Of a stretch of 64,000 bases of DNA, positions 9,090 through 33,497 are shown one piece after another. This stretch comes from Clostridia bacterium (GTDB lineage Bacteria; Bacillota; Clostridia; Christensenellales; CAG-314). The notes beneath the pieces are model-generated. The model was given only the letters and a program-made list of their open reading frames with translations. It did no database searches and had not been told where the DNA came from. Positions within the stretch are counted from its first letter, which is position 1, and each line of letters starts with the position of its first letter. A program made the translations under genes and the position numbers. The stretch covers positions 1 through 64,000 of the forward strand of contig JAFVYC010000036.1 of the NCBI GenBank assembly GCA_017500855.1, read 5' to 3'.

Positions 9090-11723
9090 CTATTTTTTTT
9101 CAACAAATCCTTCTGGAGCAGATTCAAGGTTTACTCTGAAGTCATCCACAACGAAGCAACCGTAGTTTCCTGTAGAGTTGTCTACTACTCTGAAGAAGAA
9201 GTCTGCAGTTTCGCCCGTGTATTGGTAGAAGTAAGCATTCATCACAGTGTGCACCTTGTCTGTAGCATCGTTGTAGAACGTTGCAATTACTGTGCCATCT
9301 GCTCTTACAAGTTGAATGTATACATCAGTGTTTACAAGGGCTTGATTCTTTGCACCACCTGCGCCACCAAAACGGAAGGATACGTAAGTGCCTTGCTTCA
9401 ATGTGAACGTGGAACTTTCGAGCGTGCCCTTTGCACCTTCAAGGTTTTCTATTCCTTCTCCGTTTTTAAATGCAAAGCTAAACAAGCAATCGCCTTCTTT
9501 TCTTTCATCGTTTTTCGAATACCACTCTGCGTCAATTTCTTCGGAAATGACTTCACCCAACTTATCACCATTTTGCGTCCAACCTTCAAGGTTGCCTGTT
9601 TCAAAACCACCATTTGTGATTGTGTAAACGCCGTTATAAATATTATTTGCTGTGATTGCGTTTTCTGGCAATGCCTTGCCTACTGGATAGTAAGTTACAA
9701 CGTTGTCGAAAGATACGCAACCCCAACCGTCTGTAGCATAGTCTACAACTTGAATGCAGATTGTATCTCCAATGTAATCAGAGAGATCTGCAACGTAAGT
9801 TTTGAGAACAGCATCTTCCCTTGCTTGTTGACGGAATCTTGCAAGAACTTCGTTTGTTGTTGCATCAATTACTTGAACGTAGCAGAGATCGTTGCCACCA
9901 CCAAGCATGTAGGAGATGTAGCCCGTGCCACCAAGTTCAAATGCGGAACTTGTGAGAACTCCCTTGTTGACTTCTCTCTTTGTGTCTGCGCCGAAACTTT
10001 CTACGCCTGTGAATAGGTAGTCGCCCACTTTGCCGTAAGAAATATTATCTCCCCAGTATCCGCTTGCGTTAGTTACAACGCCGATTTCGCCGTTGTTCCA
10101 CCAACCTTGAACGTTGCCCATTTCGAAGCCGCCGTTGAACAAATCGTAGATTGTTCCGGAAACTGTGTAGTTGACTGGTGTTGCATCGTTGAATCCATCT
10201 GGTGCATTTTCGTAGTAAGTGATGAAGCTGTCAACAAAGAACAAGCCGTAGCCACTGTCGGCATTGTCGCTGATGCGGAAGAATACTTCTTTACCCATGA
10301 ATGCGGACAAATTTGCTTTGTAGGCAACAAGCTTGCAACCACCGAGATCTGCGTCACTCCACAAACCGTTGTAGTAGCGAGCAAGAATTTGCTTTGTTTC
10401 GGCATCAACAACGTCGATGTACACATAGTTGCCATCCTTCATTGCGCCAACTTTGAAGGTTACAAAGCCGGAACCACCAACTGTGAACGTGGAAGATGTC
10501 AACGTGCCAACTGCGGATTCAAGCGCACCGGGAGCATAGGCAGAGAACATCTTGTCGCCGTCCATGCCAAATTCAATTGCTTCTTTCCAATAAGTCTTTT
10601 CGGAACTTACATCACCAATGTTACCAACAACATCCCAACCTTCCAAACCATTTTCGAAACCACCGTTTGCAAGTCTATATTTTGTAGTGTCTTTCAAATT
10701 GAGTGTGTAGGTATAGGTCAAAGCTTCTTCAACTTCGTTCAATGTGTAGGAAATTGTTACGGTAAATGTTTCTGTTGTGATTTGGTCACTGTATGTGCCA
10801 AATACAAAGGTATGCTTTGTGCCGTCAAGTACAACTTCTTCTTCGCCACGTTTTGCAGAATATGTAAGTTGCAAATCACTTACGTTGTCTACATTTGCAA
10901 AGTCAAGAACAATGCCTGTGTTGTTTACTACAAAAACATCAATGTCTTGTGTGATGCTTGATTCTACCAAAACAGGGGCAATTGCTCTGATTTCCGAACA
11001 AACATTGCAAGATGTGTCACGGTCATCGTCGTACTTGTGTCCAAGTGCATCGGTTGTTTCTTGTGGTACAAGAACTGCGTTACATTCGGAGCAGTGCTTG
11101 CCTTCCGTCAAACCTGTTGTTGTGCAAGTTGCTTCAACTGCGGAATCAACAGCTTCGGTGTGGCCGTTTGCTTCAACTACTTGTTGTTCTGTGAGAACAA
11201 GTCCGCAATCAAGGCATCTCAGGCCTTCCGTCAAACCAGTTTCTGTACAAGTTGGTGCAACCGCCGAAAGAACTTCTTTGTTTGCGTGGTCGCACTCTAT
11301 TGCGCCCTTTTCCGTTGTGATTTCGCCAGTTACAAAGTCACAAGTTGCTGTTGCATCCTTGCCCTCTGGGGAGAATTGTAGGGCACCCCCCCCCGTCACT
11401 TTGTAGGTACCTGCAATGCCAAGCGTTTGCACAAAGTTCAAAACGATTTCCGCTTCGCTTGGGGTGCCTTGTGCGCCTTGGGTGGAAGCCACAACGATTG
11501 TGGACGAGCCGGAAATACCATCGCTCAAGTCGAAACCGTCGTTTGTGATGTCTTCCGCAACAAGGGCGTTGCGAATTTGTGTCATTTCCTGCATGGCAAC
11601 ACTTTGGTGTGCTTTTTCGATGAAGGCTGTGTAGCCAACAACGGAAACTGTTGCCAAGATTGCCAAGATTGCAATTACAACCAGCAATTCTACCAAGGTG
11701 AAACCTTTTTTGGTGCTTTTCAT
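9090..11723 (-). CDS. Type IV prepilin fused to carbohydrate-binding-like modules
   Basis: The 877-aa protein starts with a class III prepilin signal, KKGFTLVELLVVIAILAILA (residues 5-24), with cleavage expected after G7 and E12 as the conserved Glu-5 of the mature pilin. A pilin-size head runs to about residue 130. Residues about 140-245 hold CxxC repeats (CLDC, CSEC, CNVC) like zinc-ribbon-type spacer repeats of clostridial surface proteins. One Ig-like segment and three jelly-roll modules follow (GFENGLEGW, GFEMGNVQGW, GFETGNLEGW). A C9/G9 run at 11386-11394 lies in codons 110-113. It would be exported by the pilus machinery, of which the ATPase lies at the right edge of the window. Start is supported by AGGAG upstream. 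The combination of pilin and binding modules is unusual. Confidence 0.8.
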   Translation of the reverse strand: MKSTKKGFTLVELLVVIAILAILATVSVVGYTAFIEKAHQSVAMQEMTQIRNALVAEDITNDGFDLSDGISGSSTIVVASTQGAQGTPSEAEIVLNFVQTLGIAGTYKVTGGGALQFSPEGKDATATCDFVTGEITTEKGAIECDHANKEVLSAVAPTCTETGLTEGLRCLDCGLVLTEQQVVEANGHTEAVDSAVEATCTTTGLTEGKHCSECNAVLVPQETTDALGHKYDDDRDTSCNVCSEIRAIAPVLVESSITQDIDVFVVNNTGIVLDFANVDNVSDLQLTYSAKRGEEEVVLDGTKHTFVFGTYSDQITTETFTVTISYTLNEVEEALTYTYTLNLKDTTKYRLANGGFENGLEGWDVVGNIGDVSSEKTYWKEAIEFGMDGDKMFSAYAPGALESAVGTLTSSTFTVGGSGFVTFKVGAMKDGNYVYIDVVDAETKQILARYYNGLWSDADLGGCKLVAYKANLSAFMGKEVFFRISDNADSGYGLFFVDSFITYYENAPDGFNDATPVNYTVSGTIYDLFNGGFEMGNVQGWWNNGEIGVVTNASGYWGDNISYGKVGDYLFTGVESFGADTKREVNKGVLTSSAFELGGTGYISYMLGGGNDLCYVQVIDATTNEVLARFRQQAREDAVLKTYVADLSDYIGDTICIQVVDYATDGWGCVSFDNVVTYYPVGKALPENAITANNIYNGVYTITNGGFETGNLEGWTQNGDKLGEVISEEIDAEWYSKNDERKEGDCLFSFAFKNGEGIENLEGAKGTLESSTFTLKQGTYVSFRFGGAGGAKNQALVNTDVYIQLVRADGTVIATFYNDATDKVHTVMNAYFYQYTGETADFFFRVVDNSTGNYGCFVVDDFRVNLESAPEGFVEKK
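11386..11394 (-). repeat. Nine-base G tract in the prepilin-fusion coding sequence
   Basis: Nine consecutive C on the plus strand (G on the coding strand) encode V-T-G-G-G-A. With eight G the frame reaches TAA, and with ten G reaches TGA, both within about 22 codons. It is one of only two such tracts in the window. Confidence 0.85.
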
Positions 11724-28599: not shown

Positions 28600-29778
28600 T
28601 TTTTTGAAAAGTTTTTTATAAAAAATATAGTTTTTTTGTAGAGAGTGCATTTATATTATTTATACCTGTTCACATTCAAAGATTTGTTGCGAGCAAACCG
28701 ATGAAAAACAGGCGTGTTTTGTCCAAAACCATTGCTTTGAAAACAGCCGTCGAAACAGAAGGACTGCAATTGCTTTGGCAAATAAAATTTCCCAAAATTT
28801 TGGGACGGAGTTTTTGCAAGAAGCATTTCCGTTACAAAACAAAAAAGCAACGGCAAAACACGGCAGAGGGCGCACAGCACAAACGTCAACGGAAGGGCAA
28901 AACAATTCTACACGTGCAGTTGCGTACAGCCCTGCTAGTTGAACATTTTGCTTTGCAGTTACAAAACGTTTCGTTGGCTGTGGATGCGAGGCGTTTTGCA
29001 TGGTTTTTCCAACCACGGGTGTAGGCTTTTGCCAATTGCCAAGCCCTGCCCCCACCCGGTTTGGCATGCACTTTGACACCACGTCTTGGCGTTTTGCCAT
29101 TGTTAGCCTCAAAAGAAGTGCTTGCCCTAGTTTACACAAAACGTACGAAATTTGAAGAAAAACAAAAAGTGCTTTGCAGTTGCAAGGCGCTTGGTTTTTT
29201 TTGTTTGTTTTTGAAAGTTTTTTTCAGTTTCCCCACCACGGGGTCTTTTTTTTCGTATTGTTTGGGAATGTGTGCAGTTGATGCTTGCACATTGTGTTGC
29301 CAAAACAAAAACGCAATTATTGCGCACACGGGGTGGCATTTTTTCAATCGGCGAATAGTTACTTCCAATGGGAGCACAGCAAATTTTCCACCATGGGGTG
29401 GCATTTTCCCCTCAATCAAGTTGCCGTGCCACCCACACCACAGACACTACACTGCCAATTCCACACCACGGGCAAGGGATTTGCAATTGGCATATCAATT
29501 GCAACACAACACGCAAGTTTGCGGTGCTATAAATAACAAACAATGACGTCGCCATTTTTTGCACGGCTTTGTTGGATGCGCATCCAAACACTTGCCCCGA
29601 CATGGGGGCAAACGCCACCCCGTCTTTTTGCACCTTACTTGGCCTTGAAACCTTGCAAAATGCCAACACGTATCGTATCTTTCCACTTTTGTTGGACTTT
29701 GTTATGTTTTCTCCCTTTGCTTATCACAGCATCGCAATAATAAACACTAATTTTTTTTAATTTTTTTTTGAAAAAGTA
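28600..29778. other. Noncoding region with dispersed intergenic motifs
   Basis: About 1.2 kb between the divergent fructan and TasA/SipW operons. No ORF looks coding. It holds degenerate copies of the CCACCACGGGGTGG motif (about 29010, 29231, 29386 and 29455) and a weaker copy of the AAAGTGCTTTGCAGTTGCAA hairpin (about 29166-29195) seen at 3413-3440. It looks like an accumulation site of small dispersed repeats. Confidence 0.5.
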
Positions 29779-29807
29779 TTGACACCCCCCCCCATTGGTG
29801 CTACAAT
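29779..29807 (+). promoter_or_regulatory. Promoter with a C9 spacer tract, TasA/SipW operon
   Basis: TTGACA (29779-29784) and TACAAT (29802-29807) are exactly 17 bp apart, and the first nine spacer bases (29785-29793) are all C. Gain or loss of one C changes the spacer to 18 or 16 bp. This layout matches known phase-variable promoters in other bacteria. Confidence 0.85.
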
Positions 29808-29841
29808 AAACAAAAAAAAATCCCAACAAGGAGGAACAACA

Positions 29842-30477
29842 ATGAAAAAACTTAGTATTCTCGTTGCAATCATCGTTATTGTGACAATCGGTGGCGTATA
29901 CGCTACTTGGAACTATGCCGGAACATCTACTGAAATCGGCCAACAAGTGAACCAAACAATTACACTTGAAAATGCCGTTCAAGATGGCGCTGCAGGTTCC
30001 TACACACTCAGCCACAACATTGCTTCCATCAGCATTGCTCCAAACAACCAAGATGATAAATTGGCAACATTGGTAGCAACCTATACAGATGGTAGCTCGG
30101 CACCAAAACTCACGTTGACATTTACTCCAACAGCAAACGCCGGTGACGACATTGAAGCAAATGCGCTTGCATCCTACGTTTACTTTGGAACAGAACGTGA
30201 TTTCACATGGGATGGTGGCTCTATGTTTACGTTTGCTAACGGCAAGACTTCTCCAATGAGCATTGGCGCTGTAAACAGCGGTGCTGCAAGGGTATGGACA
30301 AAAGAAGGTAACGCTTTCAAATGCGAACTTACGTTTGCTTCCATCGAAGAACTCATTGCATTCTCTAGCAACATCTATCTCCCAACAATCGACGACTACA
30401 ACGACTTCCTTGCTGCACTTGGTGGATCTCACAGCATCCAACTCCACATGCACATCAGCAACAAGCAACCTGCTTAG
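29842..30477 (+). CDS. TasA/camelysin-like secreted fibre protein
   Basis: The 211-aa protein begins MKKLSILVAIIVIVTIGGVYATW: a short signal helix ending in the G-G-V-Y-A-T-W pattern characteristic of SipW-dependent substrates such as TasA and camelysin. The mature part is predicted to be a beta-sandwich. A strong AAGGAGG precedes the ATG. The next gene encodes a SipW-like peptidase and the one after another protein with a related leader, as in the Bacillus tapA-sipW-tasA operon. Fibre formation is inferred from that relationship. Confidence 0.82.
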   Translation: MKKLSILVAIIVIVTIGGVYATWNYAGTSTEIGQQVNQTITLENAVQDGAAGSYTLSHNIASISIAPNNQDDKLATLVATYTDGSSAPKLTLTFTPTANAGDDIEANALASYVYFGTERDFTWDGGSMFTFANGKTSPMSIGAVNSGAARVWTKEGNAFKCELTFASIEELIAFSSNIYLPTIDDYNDFLAALGGSHSIQLHMHISNKQPA

Positions 30478-30536
30478 TTGAAAACTGCACATTGAGTGAT
30501 TGTTGCTCGATTTAGAAACTAATTCACAACAATATG

Positions 30537-30569
30537 TATCCCACGAGCCATTTTTGGCATCGTGGGATA
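30537..30569 (+). terminator. Partial terminator or attenuator hairpin after the TasA-like gene
   Basis: TATCCCACGA pairs with TCGTGGGATA, with an inner GCCA/TGGC stem. The following bases (TTGCCTATTTTTGG) are a poor T-run, so some read-through into the peptidase gene is expected, giving more of the fibre protein than of the peptidase. Confidence 0.5.
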
Positions 30570-30646
30570 TTGCCTATTTTTGGCAATCAAAAATTTGAAA
30601 CAAACTGCCACAATTTGAAGAAACACCAATACATACGCAACAAGAT

Positions 30647-32800
30647 ATGACGTTTGAAATTTACCAATTTATACTTTGCGCATTTGTTTTTACAATGCTT
30701 ACGGCACTGTTCACTGTTTTGGTGACAATGCTTGTTAGGTATGCGTTGAGAATGATTCGTGCAGGGTTGTTCGATGAGGACATCAAAACTGAATACTTGA
30801 AGAACAAGGGCAAGAAACCGTCGGTTATCGGCAAGATATTCGACTGGTTTTTGTTGGGCACTTGCACTGTTGCGTTGCTTGTTTCCTTTGCAATGTCTCT
30901 TTCCGTTTCGTCCTGTTGCAACGGCACGCCAATAGACGGCGTTCCCAAAGCCAACGTCGTGCGAAGCGAAAGTATGTCGTACATTTCCCCCAACCACAAG
31001 TACTTGAAGGAAGGCGACGTTACCGACCAATTGCAAATGTTCGACGTGGTGTTTGTTGAACAGTTGCCATCCGAGGACGAGTTGAAGGTAAACGACATTG
31101 TTGTGTACAAGTTTCGAGATTCATTCATCATCCACAGAATTGTTGCAATAGAAGAACGCAACGATGCGCACCCCAATCAACGTTACTTCCTGTTGCAAGG
31201 CGATGCCAACGACCTTGCCGACAGATTCCCCGTTACCTACGACAGCATGGTGGGCATCTACAACGGCACACGCATTCCTTTTGTTGGAAGTTTTGTGTTG
31301 TTCATGCAATCGCCTGCAGGTTGGTTGTGCATTTTGCTTGTTGTGTTTGCAATGATTGCAACGCCAATTGCCGAAAAGAAATTGAACGATGCACGCAAAG
31401 CAAGGTTGCCGTTGCTGTTCCCACCGGTTGAAGATGCAATTACCGAAGTTGAAGCAACTGCGACCGTGGCGGAAGAAACTGTCGAACCCGTTGTTGAAGA
31501 GGCTGTTCCGCCTGTGGACGAACCGGTTGCAACCGCAGTAGACGTTGCGTTGGCGGAAGATATTTCTGCCATCGTCACACTGCCAAGCCCATTTGCACAT
31601 TTGCGTGGGGCAAGAGACACCCGCACTTTCGACGAAAAACTTGCCGTTTTGCCAATTGCAAGGGGTAGGTACGAAACCATTTGTTCGTTGCTTGCAAGAA
31701 TTGAAAAAATACGTGCAATTTCTAGTAAAAAGGCAAAAACTTTCAAGGTTGGCAAAATTGCCATTGTAAAATTTACAATTCGTGGCAAAACGCTCAATGC
31801 ACATCTTGCGTTGCAACCTGCCGACTACGAGGGAACAAAGTACATTTTTGCCGACGTTTCGGCAACAAAGGCGTACGCAAACTACCCAATGCGTGTGAAG
31901 GTGACTTCCGACAGGCAAGCAAAATGGGTTGTGGAATTGTTGCACGACATTGTTGCAAAACACGGATTGACGCTTGCCGAAGTGGCATTGCCCATTCCGA
32001 CGGAAGTTGAAGACGTGCCGTTTTCCTTTGCAAGCTTGCCAAGGCGAGCAAGCAAAACCTTTGCCGAAAAACTGGAACTTTCGCCAAAAGCAAAAGCAAG
32101 GTACAACGCCATTGTGGAAGAAGTACTTTGCAGAATGCAAGGTGTTCGCACCATCGAAAGCAAAAAATACAGAACCTACAAACGCAAATCTACACCCGTT
32201 GTCAAGTTTAGCATACGTGGCAAAACGCTCAATGCCTACATTGCGTTGCCTACAGCCGAATTTGCCGACAGCAAGTACATTTTTGTCGATTCGTCGGAAA
32301 CACGTGCGTACGCCAAGTACCCAATGCGTGTGAAGGTGACCTCCGACAGGCGAGCAAAATGGGTTGTAGAATTGCTAAAAAATCTTGCCGAAAGGCACGG
32401 AATCAAATTGGTAGACCCAATATTTGCAAGGCTACGCCGTGGCGCAAGCAAAACCTTTGCCGAAAGATTGGAACTTTCGCCCAAGGCAAAAGCAAGGTAC
32501 GTTGCAATAACGGCAGAGCTTGACAAAATTGAAGGCCTTCGCAAAATTGAAGGCAAAAAACGCATCACGTACAAGCGCAAGTCCAAACCGATTGCAAGGT
32601 TTAGCATGCGTGGCAAAACGCTTAACGCCTACGTTGCGTTGCCACCGCTTATGTTTGCAGGAACAAAGTATATCTTTACCGACGTTTCCGCAACAAAATC
32701 CTACGCAAACTACCCAATGCGTGTGAAGGTGACGTCCGACAGACAAGTTAGATGGTTGCTTGAGCTGCTTATGATAACAATTCATGGAGGTGACCTGTGA
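30647..32800 (+). CDS. sipW: SipW-like signal peptidase with three C-terminal repeat domains
   Basis: The 717-aa protein has two N-terminal membrane helices (about 10-32 and 66-86), an ER-type signal peptidase I core with nucleophile S109 in RSESM, H163 in IIHRIV in place of lysine, and QGDAND (185-190), then a third helix (about 224-240). SipW proteins are normally about 190-240 aa. Here an acidic Val/Glu/Pro linker leads to three copies of a roughly 110-residue domain (about 312-425, 450-555, 560-710), each with the core IRGKTLNA or MRGKTLNA, then a TKYIF-type strand and YPMRVKVTSDR. This repeat occurs in many clostridial proteins; I know no function. No strong ribosome site precedes ATG 30647. 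Confidence 0.8.
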   Translation: MTFEIYQFILCAFVFTMLTALFTVLVTMLVRYALRMIRAGLFDEDIKTEYLKNKGKKPSVIGKIFDWFLLGTCTVALLVSFAMSLSVSSCCNGTPIDGVPKANVVRSESMSYISPNHKYLKEGDVTDQLQMFDVVFVEQLPSEDELKVNDIVVYKFRDSFIIHRIVAIEERNDAHPNQRYFLLQGDANDLADRFPVTYDSMVGIYNGTRIPFVGSFVLFMQSPAGWLCILLVVFAMIATPIAEKKLNDARKARLPLLFPPVEDAITEVEATATVAEETVEPVVEEAVPPVDEPVATAVDVALAEDISAIVTLPSPFAHLRGARDTRTFDEKLAVLPIARGRYETICSLLARIEKIRAISSKKAKTFKVGKIAIVKFTIRGKTLNAHLALQPADYEGTKYIFADVSATKAYANYPMRVKVTSDRQAKWVVELLHDIVAKHGLTLAEVALPIPTEVEDVPFSFASLPRRASKTFAEKLELSPKAKARYNAIVEEVLCRMQGVRTIESKKYRTYKRKSTPVVKFSIRGKTLNAYIALPTAEFADSKYIFVDSSETRAYAKYPMRVKVTSDRRAKWVVELLKNLAERHGIKLVDPIFARLRRGASKTFAERLELSPKAKARYVAITAELDKIEGLRKIEGKKRITYKRKSKPIARFSMRGKTLNAYVALPPLMFAGTKYIFTDVSATKSYANYPMRVKVTSDRQVRWLLELLMITIHGGDL

Positions 32801-33447
32801 AACACTTGAGATTACCCCTGATTGTTGTTTTGACACTTTGCATTGCCTGTACGCTTGTGGTTGGGCTGAACGCACAGTGGATATACCCGGATTTGTCGTT
32901 GTCGCTTGGTGACAGCAATGGCGCAAATATCATTTTGCAAGAGTTTGAATACACCCCGGACGAAGTTCTTCCCGGTGGCGACCAAAACGATCAAGAAGTA
33001 GAAGTTGGGCAAAACCACAACAGCCTGATTGACAGAATTGTTAACCACGTGACCTACGGTTTGAACGCAACAAAGAAACCAATTATGAAAGATTTGTTGC
33101 TGGAAGATGGTTTGGAAGCAGTCTACTCTAACCAAACTGTTAGCGGTGGCAACTTGAAGCACCTTTTGATTGATGATGCCTCCATGGAAGCATTGGATTT
33201 TGCCGTCAAGTACGAAACGGACACGTTTTTTACAGCCTACACCTTTGCTAGCAAATACTTGACAAACAGTCAAGTTGGCCAAACCATAGAAGTTTACAAA
33301 ACCGACATAGTCTTGGAAAACGGCAGATGGGTGGCAAAGCGAAGCTACAAGGGAACGGCGGTTGTTTCCAAGGTGTTTGTTAGAAACAAACAAATTGTAA
33401 ACATAGACGTTTTCGGTTGGAAAGGCAACAGTTCTACCACAAACTAA
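32797..33447 (+). CDS. Second SipW-dependent-type exported protein
   Basis: A 216-aa protein starting with GTG that overlaps the stop of the peptidase gene, behind a perfect GGAGGTGACCT ribosome site. The leader (residues 5-25) ends VVGLNAQW, resembling the Y-A-x-W region of SipW substrates. The rest is a soluble mixed domain with no family I recognise. By operon position it may be the TapA-like partner or a regulator of the fibre. Confidence 0.7.
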   Translation: MKHLRLPLIVVLTLCIACTLVVGLNAQWIYPDLSLSLGDSNGANIILQEFEYTPDEVLPGGDQNDQEVEVGQNHNSLIDRIVNHVTYGLNATKKPIMKDLLLEDGLEAVYSNQTVSGGNLKHLLIDDASMEALDFAVKYETDTFFTAYTFASKYLTNSQVGQTIEVYKTDIVLENGRWVAKRSYKGTAVVSKVFVRNKQIVNIDVFGWKGNSSTTN

Positions 33448-33463
33448 ACAAATAAAGCACAAC

Positions 33464-33497
33464 ACGGCGTGCCACTCTCGACGGAGTGGCACGCCGT
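33464..33497 (+). terminator. Terminator of the TasA/SipW operon
   Basis: A 14-bp perfect stem, ACGGCGTGCCACTC with GAGTGGCACGCCGT, with a 6-base loop, followed by CTACTTTATTGTT. Confidence 0.75.

Follow-up and report, generated by a model that had tools for sequence, protein, structure and literature searches.

Homopolymer-tract promoters that look like genome-wide on/off gene switches in gut bacteria not known as pathogens

The window, a stretch of 64,000 nucleotides from an uncultured gut member of the Clostridia, contains a housekeeping-sigma promoter whose spacer includes a tract of nine C predicted to be prone to slippage. Our comparison suggests, with a probability of roughly three in four, that this tract switches the operon behind it and that the promoter belongs to a genus-wide set, most members of which are assembled at spacings other than 17 bp. 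Replication slippage would add or remove one C and thereby shift the spacing between the -35 and -10 boxes by 1 bp, and transcription of the operon would move back and forth between high at 17 bp, the assembled state, and low at 16 or 18 bp. The set to which the promoter would belong carries spacer tracts of G8-11 or C8-10, and each locus would be OFF by default, one slip turning it ON in a minority of cells. The comparison shows the anatomy of the promoter, its departure from chance, its recurrence, a bias in gene class, the avoidance of 17 bp, tract differences between paralogues and the restriction of the C9 tract to one lineage, whereas the slippage rate, the dependence of transcription on tract length, the reversibility and which state is ON are inferred. 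Taken together, the tracts look like a set of on/off switches spread across the genome, in bacteria of the gut that are not known pathogens.

The first-pass annotation had described a TTGACA box followed directly by nine C, with a TACAAT box at 17 bp, and this arrangement was found exactly as described and at the same coordinates (Table 1). The -35/-10 pair agrees with the consensus at 11 of 12 bases and is accompanied by an extended -10 TG, which could soften the spacing dependence of this promoter and counts against the switch reading. The C9 promoter is the best promoter match at the operon head and the single occurrence of TTGAC[A/T]-N17-TA[TC]AAT in the window; the ATG of the first operon gene follows the GGAGG at 29842. 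As in promoters of the porA/fetA type, an uninterrupted mononucleotide run lies between good -35 and -10 boxes, and the products are of the surface or secreted kind, the operon of the window being a secreted-protein operon. The A9 run downstream could also make reiterative initiation of operon transcription possible.

Table 1. Features of the C9 promoter and its operon in the window, and the other tract promoters of the source genome
Feature	Position	Strand	Basis or remark
T8 and T9 runs just 5' of -35, possible UP element	29751-29769	+	inference
-35 box TTGACA	29779-29784	+	sequence, consensus match
C9 tract directly 3' of -35, predicted slippage site	29785-29793	+	sequence
ATTGGTGC, remainder of the spacer between C9 and -10	29794-29801	+	sequence
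Extended -10 TG	29799-29800	+	sequence
-10 box TACAAT, spacer 17	29802-29807	+	sequence
A9 run at the expected transcription start, ~29814	29812-29820	+	predicted start
Shine-Dalgarno GGAGG	29830-29834	+	sequence
First gene, 211-aa secreted protein	29842-30477	+	N-terminus GGVYATWxY conserved across the operon family
717-aa SipW-like ER-type signal peptidase	30647-32800	+	HMM matches, catalytic pattern
Third gene, 216-aa protein	32797-33447	+	similar N-terminus, VGLNAQWIY
Bidirectional terminator-like hairpin, ends the operon	33464-33497	.	15-bp stem
Tract promoter TTGACA-AAAT-G10-TG-TATAAT	C28:10896		precedes lipoprotein gene
Tract promoter TTGACA-N10-G8-TATACT	C5:33614		
Tract promoter TTGACA-AATGT-G9-ATGA-TATAGT	C41:4741	-	precedes membrane-protein gene

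The C9 tract is not a matter of ordinary base composition. In 164 kb of the source genome (1.52 Mb in 41 contigs, ~92% complete), C/G runs of length 4, 5, 6, 7, 8 and 9 number 440, 85, 2, 0, 1 and 4, and geometric decay from length 4 to length 5 predicts ~0.12 runs at length 9, compared with the 4 observed. The source genome has 19 G/C runs of at least 8, four of which carry TTGACA 0-11 nt upstream (expected 0.12, P ~7e-6); three of these promoters are listed in Table 1, and the fourth is the C9 promoter itself. The sole other G/C run longer than 5 in the window is a G9 at 11386-11394, which lies within the coding sequence 9090-11723 (minus strand). The encoded protein, of 877 aa, has a type IV pilin N-terminus (PF07963), and slippage in the run would change the reading frame downstream of about residue 113, making this G9 a candidate for translational phase variation. 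Two further G9 runs lie next to start codons at other loci. One (L030, near 1501; G000:C33:36268) takes the Shine-Dalgarno position in front of a small stand-alone protein, most of which is an RNA polymerase alpha C-terminal domain (PF03118, E 6e-16); the length of this run could alter translation of the protein. The other (L028, near 1501; G000:C33:33810) lies immediately ahead of the start codon in a gene for a 173-aa membrane protein, and this gene is served by an ordinary TTGACA-N17-TATAAT promoter.

The tract is one of many, a point missing from the first-pass annotation, and promoters of this kind recur among relatives. TTGACA-N0-11-G8 was found in 22 of 41 family genomes, most densely in the genus of the window, compared with two matches, both in one genome, for the reversed control of the pattern. 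Genus relatives carry up to about ten tract promoters each, mostly with G8-11 adjoining the -10 box, and 86 distinct promoters remain among the family genomes when the run must abut TATNNT. Each of these genomes is a consensus assembled from metagenomes, and promoters of one family are partly non-independent. The C version, as present in the window, occurs in eight family genomes, all of the same genus as the window; the control for this pattern was not clean (6 matches in 3 genomes), and the C class therefore stands on less secure ground than the G class. C tracts abutting the -35 box form a minor class, which we count against the slippage-switch reading. On the coding strand of the family genomes, G abutting -10 far outnumbers C abutting -35.

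In a phylum-wide sample, G8-TATACT and C8-type promoters were found in none of 397 other genomes, and the trait is therefore not general in Bacillota. A scan of species genomes returned at least 119 stretches with the tract-promoter signature; among the matches listed, titles were mostly Clostridia and Bacilli MAGs, with some Saccharibacteria, spirochaetes, Streptobacillus and Helicobacter. That the signature is in the main a phage trait was rejected, as viral contigs gave a single match. Some genomes contain several identical or near-identical tract promoters, often close to the ends of contigs (L116-L119 in G020, L114/L115 in G016, L111/L112 in G010), which suggests that these copies spread by duplication.

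Tract promoters avoid the spacing that is usual for tract-free ones. Tract-free TTGACA...TAYAAT promoters of the source genome cluster at 17 bp, with ~80 of 96 lying within 16-18 bp. Tract promoters concentrate at 15-16 and 18-19 bp: in the multi-taxon set (n=126), spacings of 14, 15, 16, 17, 18, 19 and 20 bp are represented by 2, 14, 22, 7, 32, 37 and 12 promoters. A 17-bp spacing was found in 7 of 126 tract versus 28 of 50 tract-free promoters of the same loci (multi-taxon; Fisher 8e-13) and, within the family and for TATAAT or TATACT boxes, in 1 of 47 versus 16 of 24 (3e-9), and when measured against the minimum compatible with a log-concave curve the trough has a P of 1e-4 in the multi-taxon set and 1e-2 in Clostridia alone, all P values resting on partly non-independent promoters and a modest tract-free baseline. 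The trough holds within Clostridia alone (16:8, 17:1, 18:8) and is weaker when all -10 variants in the family are admitted (16:9, 17:8, 18:38, 19:20). With tract length fixed at 9, a remaining spacer of 7, 8, 9 or 10 nt was present in 17, 2, 19 and 16 promoters, and the trough is therefore not an artefact of tract length. Chance or a gap in the search was rejected as its cause, because the same patterns do find spacing 17 and the trough also appears without the -10 constraint.

If each locus is usually OFF and a single slip away from ON, most loci should lie at 15-16 or 18-19 bp, as they do, and this is how we read the usual allele of the tract promoters, ON and OFF being assigned from spacing alone. 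The window promoter is unusual in sitting at the optimum, because most of its sister promoters are assembled 1-2 bp off 17, and it is predicted to be in the rarer ON state. It is tempting to go further and propose, at slightly better than even odds, a promoter-based phasome in uncultured gut Clostridia, in which up to about ten sigma-A tract promoters per genome, with spacers usually at least 1 bp off the optimum, would keep surface proteins and accessory metabolic operons mostly OFF, the avoidance of 17 bp would mark selection for a default OFF state, and the same signature would extend the phasome to some other gut lineages.

The genes behind the tracts were compared with tract-free controls. 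Products resembling secreted proteins or lipoproteins are encoded by 31 of 52 tract genes and 11 of 55 controls (P 3e-5), as called for both by the same simple hydropathy and lipobox rule. Other genes behind tract promoters encode ABC ATPases and accessory metabolic operons. Among the latter, a class II aldolase operon of the accessory kind supplies a natural control: its promoter carries G8-9 in six species (G009, G010, G012, G015, G019, G022), and none of the scored upstream regions of housekeeping aldolases has a run of at least 7. Near-identical paralogous promoters of the same genome differ in tract length, with G9/G10 in L143/L161, L173 and L111/L112 and G8/G12 in L202. Two contigs of G015 terminate exactly within such a run, a possible sign of varying run length or simply an effect of repeats.

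These tract lengths bear on an alternative explanation, graded tuning, in which tracts let the spacer evolve fast between lineages but each population effectively has one fixed length. As graded tuning would have it, tract lengths span a narrow range, mostly 9-10, and those of the aldolase promoter are similar in related species; but the paralogues within one genome differ by 1-4 G, fixed tuning would favour 17 bp, which is avoided, and pure G/C runs as long as these are typical of loci known to vary in phase by slippage. We regard graded tuning as unlikely. A structural explanation, according to which G/C runs change DNA twist such that the optimum shifts to ~18 bp and most tract promoters are ON, appears more doubtful still. 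Poly(G).poly(C) is under-twisted, and 18 and 19 bp are the commonest spacings. However, a shifted optimum gives one mode, and the two modes at 15-16 and 18-19 bp, with a trough at 17 that persists at tract length 9 and within Clostridia, therefore speak against it, as does the position of the window promoter at 17 bp. That a regulator reads the G/C run as its binding site is very improbable: many G-type promoters do have a C or T just before a run that adjoins -10, but the tracts differ in position, strand and length, C-type runs adjoin -35 instead, and inspection by eye showed no conserved motif alongside. Spacer-length phase variation, as put forward in the first-pass annotation, is the best reading and is strengthened by its recurrence across the genus, by the statistics of spacing and by the kinds of gene involved; the sequence gives no support for TasA as its target.

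The three genes of the operon (29842-33447) are closed by a strong terminator, and the third overlaps the sipW-like gene by 4 bp. The first and third proteins are of the SipW-substrate type. The peptidase scores 50.2 bits against TIGR02228, just below the cut-off of 51.85, and 51.6 bits against NF046067 (cut-off 190); it has the ER-type Ser...His catalytic pattern (SESMSY and IIHRI), which is kept, as judged by eye, in the G004 orthologue. The SipW-like label is reasonable. Unlike Bacillus SipW, the peptidase carries a long C-terminus that is repetitive and weakly matches DUF5655. The 211-aa first protein has no Pfam or NCBIfam family match, the TasA/CotN (Peptidase_M73) HMM did not match it at E up to 10, and a profile search of PDB structures with it returned nothing credible. 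Its single-sequence structure model consists mostly of strands (pLDDT 41.5) and is too poor for a fold search. Of the label "TasA/SipW-like operon" the SipW half is therefore retained, and the "TasA-like fibre" is a guess from gene context. The operon resembles Bacillus tapA-sipW-tasA in placing a secreted protein beside a SipW-like signal peptidase, but differs in having no TasA/camelysin HMM match, in gene order and in the extra C-terminal region of the peptidase.

The same substrate-peptidase arrangement and GGVYATWxY N-terminus are found in the relatives G004, G028 and G037, each of which also shows a third protein whose N-terminus is similar. The orthologous promoters of these relatives are ordinary and tract-free, with spacers of 17 bp in G004 and G037 and 16 bp in G028, and C9 is therefore specific to the lineage of the window, by a gain in that lineage unless the others lost it. 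This lack of conservation at the operon locus counts against the slippage-switch reading.

If the proposed default-OFF state is true, the dip at 17 bp would let the default expression state be read from sequence. In many genomes of the lineage the candidate loci number from several to about ten, all of a single simple promoter type that ordinary reads can genotype, and a consensus genome would record just one of several expression states for many surface proteins. No report of promoter phase variation by homopolymers in gut Clostridia or Bacillota came up in a literature search of partial coverage, nor any of an avoidance of optimal spacing. The spacing-switch principle is known; for the many-locus, mostly off-by-one set in uncultured gut Clostridia we found no earlier description.

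The phasomes of Campylobacter and Helicobacter operate mainly by switching of the reading frame, whereas the tracts described here mainly concern promoter spacing. Published accounts describe many homopolymer contingency loci per genome in these bacteria (PMC6321876, PMC2823697, PMC8355987). Precedents among Mollicutes make the initial suggestion of something new in a Bacillota overstated in its broad form: an A tract in the promoter region of Mycoplasma hyorhinis vlp and a dinucleotide repeat in the promoter spacer of M. mycoides vmm both confer ON/OFF transcription of surface proteins (PMC10502178). These systems share with ours a promoter-region or spacer repeat in a Firmicutes-derived lineage, but the repeat is an A tract or a dinucleotide and not a G/C run, mycoplasmas are cell-wall-less parasites, and the vlp genes form a single gene family, unlike the set here. 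In Neisseria fetA/frpB and porA, a homopolymer between -35 and -10 sets the spacing and thereby the transcription of surface proteins (PMC5320596), and the likeness lies in the spacer homopolymer and the surface or secreted products. Neisseria are pathogens, and that account lists only three transcriptional loci for N. gonorrhoeae, whereas here there are many per genome and most are assembled off the optimum.
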